Shown here in pieces: positions 53,439-59,074 of a DNA stretch of 64,000 bases. Position 1 is the first letter of the stretch, and each line of letters begins with the position of its first letter. This stretch comes from Acidobacteriota bacterium (GTDB lineage Bacteria > Acidobacteriota > Thermoanaerobaculia > Multivoradales > Multivoraceae), in the NCBI GenBank assembly GCA_003388555.1, contig QQVD01000023.1:1-64000 (forward strand), in the 5' to 3' direction. Under the pieces are notes generated by a model, which saw only the letters and a list, made by a program, of their open reading frames with translations, was not told the DNA's origin and searched no databases. Both the position numbers and the translations under genes were made by a program.

Positions 53439-55930
<2,492 letters not shown>

Positions 55931-55934
<4 letters not shown>

Positions 55935-56575
55935 ACCCCCGCCACGCCGACCGTGGCGTCTCCCGACATCTCGCGCAGCAGGAACGCCCGCGCCACCTGC
56001 CAGTCGCGCTTCAGCGTCCGCTCCGACGTCGTCGTCATCCCGGCGATCTCCTCCAGGGTGAGGCCGGCGAAGAACCGCCACTCGACCAGCCGCCCGAGCT
56101 CCTGGTCGACCGCCTCCAGCCGGTCGAGGGCCGCGTCGAGCGCCAGCAGGTCCTCCACCGGCGCACCGGCCGACTCCGCCCGCACCTCGATGTGCTCGAG
56201 CGGCACGTGGTCGGCGGCGCCTCCGCGCTTGCGCCGTCCGCGATGGCGCAGGTGGTCGACGAGGATCTGGCGCATCGCCCGCGCGGCGAGGGCGAAGAAG
56301 TGCACCCGGTCGTTGCTGGCCACCACCCCCTGTCCGACCAGCTTCAGATAGGCCTCGTGCACCAGGGCGGTGCTGGCCAGCGAGTCGCCGACGCCGAGCC
56401 GCGCCGCCTGCCGCGCCGCGACCCGCCGCAGCTCGTCGTAGACCCGCGCGAACACCTCGTCGTAGGCCGACCGGTCGCCGCCGCGCGCCGCCGCCAGCAG
56501 CTCGGTGGTGTCGCGGTGCTCTCCTTCGGGTTGCGAGCCGTCAGGGCGGGATGCACGTCCTGCGGTCACCGGCAA
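55931..56575 (-). CDS. ECF-type sigma factor (PF07638 group) coupled to kinase
   Basis: A 214-aa sigma factor: STALVHEAYLKLVGQG, FFALAARAMRQILVDHLRHR (region 2), then GRLVEWRFFAGLTLEEIAGM and SERTLKRDWQVARAFLLREM (region 4). It resembles the sigma factor at 37947 in layout and is followed by a kinase, supporting a duplicated ECF-kinase module. The start (ATG 56575) is tentative; a ribosome-binding site is not obvious. About 290 bp upstream (56576-56868) contain nothing recognised. Confidence 0.93.
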
Positions 56576-56868: not shown

Positions 56869-57639
56869 TCAGTCGAGGTGTCGCTTCAGCGCCGCGAGCA
56901 CCAACTCCGGGCCGGAACGACGCTGGTAGTTCTCCGAGTGCTCGAGCCAGAGCACCTTGCCGTCGCGGTCGATCAGCAGCGTCGTCGGCACCGGCAGCGC
57001 GTCGGCGCCCGACGGCGGTCCGGAGTGCGCACCCTGGTTGCGCAGGCCGAAGGCATCGGTGACCGCGAGGTCGCGATCCGAGAGCATGATCGCCTGCAGG
57101 CCGTGGTGCCTGCGTTTGTCGCGGATCTCCTCGGGGAGATCGGTGCTGACGGTGACGACCTGGACGTCACGCTGCTCGAGCTCTCCGTGCAGCTCTGCCC
57201 ATCGCCGTAACTCGGCGACACAGTACGGTCACCAGTGGCCGCGGAAGAACTTGAGCAGCACCAGCTCGCCGGCGAGACTGGCGGAGTCGAACCGTTCGCC
57301 CCGCTCGTCCAGCGCCGTGAACTGCGGCATGGTCTCGCCGACCCGGATGCTGTTCGGCGCCACCTCCTGACGGCTGATCGCCACCGTGAACAGCAGGAGG
57401 GCCCCGATGCCGATGCCGAGCACCGCGGCGATGCCTCCGAACCAGCGGGTCCGCTGGACGAAGGCGGCGAGGCCGAGGGCGATGGCGAGGATCCAGGCGG
57501 CGACGAAGAGCGACCGGTTCTCCGGGATCGCCACCAGGCGCACCTGGCGGAACCAGAGCATCGTGGCGCCCGCCGCCAGCAGCGGGGCGCACAGCCCGAG
57601 GGCGGTGCCGAGCTTCCCGGTGTGGGTGTCCGTGCTCAT
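56869..57639 (-). CDS. Probable selenoprotein: membrane-anchored AhpC/TSA-type redoxin (UPYC)
   Basis: A 256-aa protein read through one UGA. Residues 1-90 hold three membrane spans (about 11-30, 45-61, 68-86). The rest is a peroxiredoxin/redoxin domain: APNSIRVGETMPQFTALDER, GELVLLKFFRGHW, then UGA (57231-57229, residue 137), then PYCVAELRRWAEL, TVSTDLPEEIRD, AIMLSDRDLAVTDAFGLRNQ, PTTLLIDRDGKVLWLEHSEN. In homologues the FxRGHWCPYC position is Cys, so UGA replaces exactly the first redox Cys, giving U-P-Y-C. A SECIS-like hairpin begins five bases downstream. The start is the ATG before the first span. The frame is open on both sides, so a frameshift is not needed. A single-base error TGC to TGA is the main alternative. 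Confidence 0.8.
57195..57223 (-). promoter_or_regulatory. Candidate bacterial SECIS element
   Basis: In the mRNA, UGA is followed by five bases and then a hairpin: CUG, internal loop, UCGCCG, apical loop AGUUA, CGGCGA, internal loop, CAG. The upper stem is a perfect 6 bp, the loop has G at its second position, and 16 bases separate UGA from the loop. These fit the bacterial SECIS rules as I recall them (G among the first two loop bases, loop 16-37 nt from UGA). Confidence 0.72.
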
Positions 57640-57805
57640 CACTGACGTATCGCGGCCGTGCGCGTCGGCCAAAGGCGACGGCGCTTTGCTCACGAAGGGG
57701 TTGAGGTGGCAGGAGTCTACAAGGAGCCGCGAGCGGCGTAGTCGAGGCGGAGGCCGGGAGCCGTGCGAGGACCCGCCGCACTCGGAAGTCGTCGACGCGT
57801 CTGCG

Positions 57806-59074
57806 CTAGGGCACGCTCGCCGACCACTGCGACAGATCGCCCGTCTCGAAGCCGTCGGTGAACAGCACCAGGAGCGAGGCCGAGTAGGCGTAGGCGCGTC
57901 CGTCGCCCTCACCGGTGGGCCCCATGGGATCGCCGACGAGGACGCCGCTGAGCTCGTCGATTGCGACAGCAGCACCGAAGTCGGCCGGTGCGTCCGGGTC
58001 GATCACCAGCGGCGTGGCGCGCAGGCGGGCGTACTCGCTCCACGACCCTTCGGCGCAGCTGGTCCCCGAGCGGCGGAAGAGCGCCGCGTCGCCCTGCGGG
58101 TTCGCGTTCAGGCGCTGCACGTCCTGACCGCCGAGCACCAGGTTGGCGCCGGCGAGCGAGAGCGAGTCCCCCCACGCGTCGTCCTCCAAGGCACCCTCCG
58201 GCACCACGGTCTCCTGCGGGGTCCAGAGGCCGAACTGGTTGAGACCGTACGAGACGATGGCTCCGGTGTCGGGGGTCGGCGGGATGAAGCCCCGGTTGTA
58301 ACCGGGAGCCCCCACCACCAGGCAGTCCTCGTCGACCGCCACCGAGGCGCCGAAGCGGGCACCTGATTGCAATGGGTTCTCGTAGACGATGGTGTTGACG
58401 TAGCCGACTCCGCCACCGGGCTGTCTGATCAGGATCTCGACGGCTCCGTTGTCGCCCTCGGCGGGATCGCCGACGGCGAACCAGGTGCCGTCCGTCGCCA
58501 CGGCGCTGCCGTACCCGAGATCGAAGGGCTCGGCCGCGCGCTGGAGAAGCTGCGACCAGGTGCTGCCGTCGTAGCCGAAGACCCGCATGTGCGACTGCAC
58601 GTTGCCGTCTCCCCTGGGAACCCCCAGCAGCACGACGTCCTCTGCCGCGGCCAGCGCGGCGGGGGCGGCGCCAGGGGAGGCGATCAAGGTCACGACCTGG
58701 GGGCTGGGGAACAGCCTCTGAGCCCGCACCTCGTAGGTCTGCGTGGCGGGGGGGTTGGCGCCGAAGTCGGTGATCACCGAGTAGAAGACGGTGAGGCCCG
58801 AGACCGCGACGGCCGGGCCGAGCCCCACGGCACCCGATGGCGACAGGGTCGGGCCGACGGTCCATCCCTGGGTGGAGGTGTCGAAGGTGAAGAGCTGAAT
58901 CGTCAGATCGCCGGGCGAGAGCACTGCGGCGAGAGCGCCGTCGACCGCGACGCGCAGACCGAACTCACCCATCGAGCCGCCGCTGAGCGTCTCGTCGGCC
59001 GAGATGGTCTCGAACGCGGCGAGGGGGGGCGTTGCCAAGGTCAGCAGGAGGGCGAGAGCGCGAAGCGTCTTCAT
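57806..59074 (-). CDS. Secreted propeller-like protein with DGFETGD tag
   Basis: A 422-aa exported protein: signal peptide (MKTLRALALLLTLATPPLAA), then FG-GAP-like blades with FGLRVAVDGALAAVLSPGD, GYGSAVATDGTWFAVGDPAE, FGASVAVDEDCLVVGAPGYN and FGAAVAIDELSGVLVGDPMG. It ends FTDGFETGDLSQWSASVP. AAAGGA precedes ATG 59074. It lies upstream of the selenoprotein and ECF-kinase genes on the same strand. Confidence 0.9.
   Translation of the reverse strand: MKTLRALALLLTLATPPLAAFETISADETLSGGSMGEFGLRVAVDGALAAVLSPGDLTIQLFTFDTSTQGWTVGPTLSPSGAVGLGPAVAVSGLTVFYSVITDFGANPPATQTYEVRAQRLFPSPQVVTLIASPGAAPAALAAAEDVVLLGVPRGDGNVQSHMRVFGYDGSTWSQLLQRAAEPFDLGYGSAVATDGTWFAVGDPAEGDNGAVEILIRQPGGGVGYVNTIVYENPLQSGARFGASVAVDEDCLVVGAPGYNRGFIPPTPDTGAIVSYGLNQFGLWTPQETVVPEGALEDDAWGDSLSLAGANLVLGGQDVQRLNANPQGDAALFRRSGTSCAEGSWSEYARLRATPLVIDPDAPADFGAAVAIDELSGVLVGDPMGPTGEGDGRAYAYSASLLVLFTDGFETGDLSQWSASVP

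Follow-up and report, generated by a model that had tools for sequence, protein, structure and literature searches.

The window analysed here, a stretch of 64,000 nucleotides on contig C21 of an Acidobacteriota draft genome (6.8 Mb in 74 contigs, 98.8% complete), carries a gene that we take, with a probability of about 96%, to encode a selenoprotein: a peroxiredoxin-like (Prx-like, UxxC) redoxin of thioredoxin fold mounted on three N-terminal transmembrane (TM) helices. On sequence grounds, the UGA within this gene is almost certainly read as selenocysteine (Sec). The strong evidence lies in the conservation of the TGA column among relatives, purifying selection on the codons behind it, and a SECIS hairpin. 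A first-pass annotation of this DNA had proposed a ‘probable new selenoprotein’. The conserved TGA, the sel genes and the SECIS hairpin bear out the second half of that phrase, while ‘new’ fits the gene, and perhaps its three-helix branch, but not the kind of protein.

One reading frame interrupted by a single UGA

The features of the locus are as follows.

56869..57639, minus strand: predicted selenoprotein gene, a three-TM membrane-anchored redoxin of 256 aa including Sec137 (from frame, conservation and model)
57229..57231, minus strand: in-frame UGA, the putative Sec codon, U137 of the UPYC motif (from codon alignment)
57200..57220, minus strand: candidate bacterial SECIS (bSECIS) hairpin, arms 57220-57213 (TGTCGCCG) and 57207-57200 (CGGCGATG)
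57379..57639, minus strand: N-terminal membrane domain, residues 1-87, with predicted helices 5-34, 43-61 and 66-87
56950..57342, minus strand: redoxin domain (AhpC-TSA PF00578 / Redoxin PF08534), residues 100-230 (from domain matches and AlphaFold2)

As the first-pass annotation had observed, the frame runs from an ATG (57639-57637) to a TGA terminator (56871-56869) with a sole break, the TGA at 57231-57229 (codon 137), and a standard ORF list divides it into two pieces, 57229-57975 (from an upstream GTG) and 56869-57087. With TGA as U, the translation around the break reads ...LKFFRGHWUPYCVAELRRWAEL.... The open frame extends upstream of ATG 57639, and alignment places the starts of relatives near that ATG. 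Taken alone, the open frame past the UGA is weak evidence for read-through, because in DNA this rich in G+C 7.8% of 357-nt stretches remain open after base shuffling.

The two ORFs would also suit two separate proteins, one a membrane peptide that terminates at the UGA, the other a redoxin fragment with a start of its own. We consider this extremely improbable: the ATG-started piece after the UGA is 72 aa long and would be missing half of a thioredoxin fold, whereas the conserved sequence on either side of the UGA, with the 47 codons from the UGA to that ATG, belongs to one PF00578 domain.

By eye, ORFs at 53439-56575 of the window resemble a serine/threonine kinase with repeats and an ECF-type sigma factor, with no evident tie to the redoxin. 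No conserved gene neighbourhood was found across the loci of eight relatives, and these loci indicate no partner or substrate.

Conservation of the UGA and selection on the codons behind it

Relatives were sought with the protein carrying Cys at residue 137, a query that does not favour TGA. Among 149 genomes of the class, this gave 29 matches at E <= 1e-15. Of these, 26 carry a single internal stop, which is TGA in every case and aligns at U137; the remaining three have no internal stop, and TGT or TGC at codon 137. U137 thus sits in the Cys column of its homologues, as had been predicted. A phylum sample of 396 genomes gave 13 matches at E <= 1e-20, the window's own gene included, all 13 with a single TGA, which in the 12 other relatives falls at the same codon 137.

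Could the UGA be an artefact of sequencing or assembly, or a nonsense mutation that arose recently in a gene undergoing decay? A draft genome in 74 contigs would allow for the former, and an open frame would arise from base composition at the rate given above. But the same TGA at the same codon recurs in the independently assembled nearest relatives, L022 and L023 (69% and 65% identical), and in dozens more, and neither TAA nor TAG takes its place in any class or phylum match. For the codons that follow the UGA and the SECIS, dN/dS is 0.14, 0.27 and 0.17 for three pairs among L021-L023. The codons behind the UGA are under purifying selection, and the region is therefore translated in this frame. 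We give error or decay a very small chance.

A 27-base pattern for [FY]RGxWUP[FY]C, run against 84,980 species genomes, matched at least 119 stretches in many phyla, a count that is uninformative on the ratio of Sec to Cys because the pattern itself was chosen for UGA. Among the matches listed, the same frame runs about 105-199 codons past the UGA, save in stretches that end earlier. Two side observations concern UPFC proteins. A genome of the same family carries another such protein (L046, L165), and another UPFC gene, from a contig whose title names a Klebsiella pneumoniae MAG (L103, CAMATU010000054.1), groups with proteobacterial MAGs, so that either the organism may be mislabelled or the contig may be contamination.

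A SECIS hairpin downstream of the UGA

The candidate bSECIS has a stem of 8 bp with two G-U pairs at its base (about -9.9 kcal/mol) and an apical loop, AGTTA (AGUUA in RNA; 57212-57208), separated from the UGA by 16 nt. It agrees with the published bacterial rules (PMC13188914): a loop of 3-9 nt that has G at one of its first two positions and lies 16-37 nt from the UGA, on a stem of 4-16 bp with an MFE <= -7.5 kcal/mol.

Tested on its own against synonymous recodings, the hairpin of the window gene does not reach significance (p = 0.147), because the amino acids constrain the stem; the same single-gene test gives p = 0.027 in L022 and 0.020 in L023. The signal resides in the family, where it goes far beyond the synonymous-codon null. 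Across 139 distinct genes, the best SECIS-model hairpin averages -7.6 kcal/mol, against -2.56 ± 0.24 for synonymous recodings, and 112 of the 139 lie at or below -5 kcal/mol, against a null maximum of 41. In a group of 49 genes that share the loop AGUU at 16 nt, 86% of the cells in the inner six stem positions hold a standard pair, a figure inflated because the group was picked by hairpin register, and sliding the stem by one to three bases drops pairing to 32-53% of cells. The stem covaries in this group, several single positions using G-C, C-G, U-A and A-U. Between codons +1 and +10, synonymous codon identity reaches 0.68 among the eight nearest relatives, which span several phyla, and it is 0.51 elsewhere. 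By total MFE, the 42 nt after the UGA cannot be told apart from synonymous recodings (mean z -0.65); the SECIS-shaped hairpin alone makes the distinction. Rfam gave no SECIS family match, chance matches only.

Selenocysteine machinery of the host genome

The first-pass annotation had proposed a search for the sel genes of this genome, whose complete absence it held to be incompatible with a selenoprotein. All four components were found: selA (422 bits), selB (315 bits across the full model) and selD (228 bits), each above its curated cut-off and unbroken, and a tRNA-Sec (70 bits against a gathering score of 47) that ARAGORN calls with anticodon TCA (UCA in RNA).

If UGA were read as another amino acid, through a reassigned code or programmed read-through without Sec, a UGA within an otherwise open, conserved frame would appear identical. 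This is highly unlikely, since the gene's own terminator is TGA, the UGA-free relatives have Cys at the aligned residue, and the genome has both the Sec genes and a SECIS-type hairpin. No formate dehydrogenase alpha subunit scores above cut-off in the host genome and the weak matches hold no internal TGA, so Sec use here does not seem to depend on a Sec formate dehydrogenase.

The same genome carries other candidates. One is a UPFC protein with an apparent signal peptide (L173, G000:C31:31965-32399, plus strand; SVLVFYRGGWUPFCNTQLGKLQ). Another, without predicted helices (L178, G000:C3:148406-148696, minus strand; VLLVTFRGDWUPYCCGQLVRLANQ), branches with actinobacterial relatives in the 149-row tree described below. 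A TlpA/ResA-like candidate (L175, G000:C6:196805-197140, minus strand) has WASWUGC, comparable to the WAxxUGC of NCBIfam NF041054, and its addition to L173, L178 and the window gene makes at least four Sec redoxin candidates in the host.

A redoxin domain on three transmembrane helices

The redoxin domain matches PF00578 at 89.1 bits (cut-off 26) and PF08534 at 75 bits, and no Pfam family covers the residues upstream of it. That the gene encodes a membrane protein, as first proposed, agrees with the AlphaFold2 model (34 relatives; pLDDT 92.8, pTM 0.86), in which three transmembrane helices precede a thioredoxin fold and U137 lies directly before helix 138-149. Residues R133, W136, U/C137, C140, D188 and R241 are invariant among the 34 relatives. 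The charge distribution (positive-inside) weakly favours an extracytoplasmic redoxin domain, which would probably face the periplasm.

The best solved folds for the model are Bcp/PrxQ, AhpE, Tpx and ResA, and the closest solved sequence is ResA. The presence of Bcp/PrxQ/AhpE in this list, and of PF00578 and Redoxin as the top domain matches, would suit a selenoprotein acting as a conventional peroxiredoxin, that is, a peroxide reductase and not a thioredoxin-like oxidoreductase. We regard this as unlikely. Aligned with the ordinary Prx of the same genome, U137 falls over the Thr of TPxC (TPGC/TPVC) and C140 over the peroxidatic Cys; the peroxiredoxin motif PxxxTxxC/U is thus absent from the window protein, which carries a thioredoxin-like U-x-x-C instead. 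NCBIfam Prx equivalogs also score far under their cut-offs, and NF040737 reaches 30 bits against 270.

For a thioredoxin-like selenoprotein, the sequence, covariation and machinery suggest that the hairpin just 3' of the UGA would recruit SelB and Sec-tRNA-Sec, and that Sec would be inserted as the nucleophilic first residue of U137-P-Y-C140. The U137 selenol may then attack a disulfide or peroxide substrate, and Cys140 would resolve the intermediate to a selenenylsulfide that a partner could re-reduce. As the redoxin domain is probably periplasmic, it likely acts on thiols or peroxides at the membrane surface, in thiol maintenance or repair or in peroxide removal. From motif, fold and topology we infer a function in extracytoplasmic thiol-disulfide or peroxide reduction.

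A three-helix branch of UPxC redoxins

In a tree of 149 rows, every one of the 43 proteins for which a simple hydropathy scan predicts two or three N-terminal helices falls in one 47-row branch (support 87/92), drawn from Acidobacteriota, Verrucomicrobiota, Planctomycetota, Pseudomonadota, Myxococcota and Rokuibacteriota. A KFFRGHWUPYC subgroup (support 100/99) unites the window protein and its acidobacterial relatives with gammaproteobacterium NOR5-3, a Pseudomonadales MAG, a Myxococcota MAG, Plesiocystis pacifica SIR-1 and others. A Geobacter UPYC protein (L065) lies within the same tree, outside the three-TM clade.

In open-licence papers, a partial coverage of the literature, we found no description of the three-helix branch, and no reports of selenoproteins from Acidobacteria/Thermoanaerobaculia or of membrane-anchored selenoproteins. 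The branch is possibly undescribed so far. We see about even odds that it constitutes an undescribed selenoprotein subfamily, in which a conserved three-helix domain and a UPxC redoxin, mostly in the Sec form and in at least six phyla, make up an integral-membrane selenol reductase at the cell envelope. The membrane-anchored Sec redoxin branch is widespread yet would be missed by standard gene calling, and its cultured bearers, NOR5-3 and Plesiocystis pacifica SIR-1, open it to testing. The host itself is a Sec-decoding acidobacterium that has no clear Sec formate dehydrogenase and would put selenocysteine in several thiol-redox proteins.

Comparison with known selenoproteins and redoxins

Since Prx-like UxxC selenoproteins have been catalogued before, the window protein is of a known kind. 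Prx selenoproteins with TxxU are distinguished from Prx-like selenoproteins with UxxC (PMC1088965), a GOS survey counts 225 Prx-like 1 UxxC sequences (PMC2398784), and a 2026 review lists a Prx-like thiol:disulfide oxidoreductase (PF00578; UxxC, UxxU) and a Redoxin family protein (PF08534; UxxC) as predicted selenoproteins (PMC13188914, Table 1). Like the window protein, members of the Prx-like family belong to PF00578, have UxxC where Prx has TxxC, and come with a bacterial SECIS by the UGA and with Cys homologues. The window protein differs in its three N-terminal TM helices, of which the available text of PMC13188914, PMC2398784 and PMC1088965 makes no mention, and in forming its own clade among UPxC proteins. 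With the Redoxin family selenoprotein, as tabulated in PMC13188914, it shares the PF08534 match and the UxxC motif. It scores better on PF00578, and the boundary between the two is one of labelling.

SelL and the SelL-related redox protein (NF040769) are likewise Prx-like Sec redoxins, and NF040769 gives weak matches in 31 of 34 relatives. The SelL motif is UxxU, whereas the window protein has UPYC and reaches about 32.5 bits on NF040769 against a cut-off of 120. ResA, TlpA and DsbE resemble the window protein as membrane-anchored thioredoxin folds with a two-residue redox motif, and their NCBIfam models remain under cut-off on it (45.9/170, 29.6/230 and 15.4/123, respectively). ResA, TlpA and DsbE have one anchoring helix and Cys, whereas the window protein has three helices and, in our reading, Sec.
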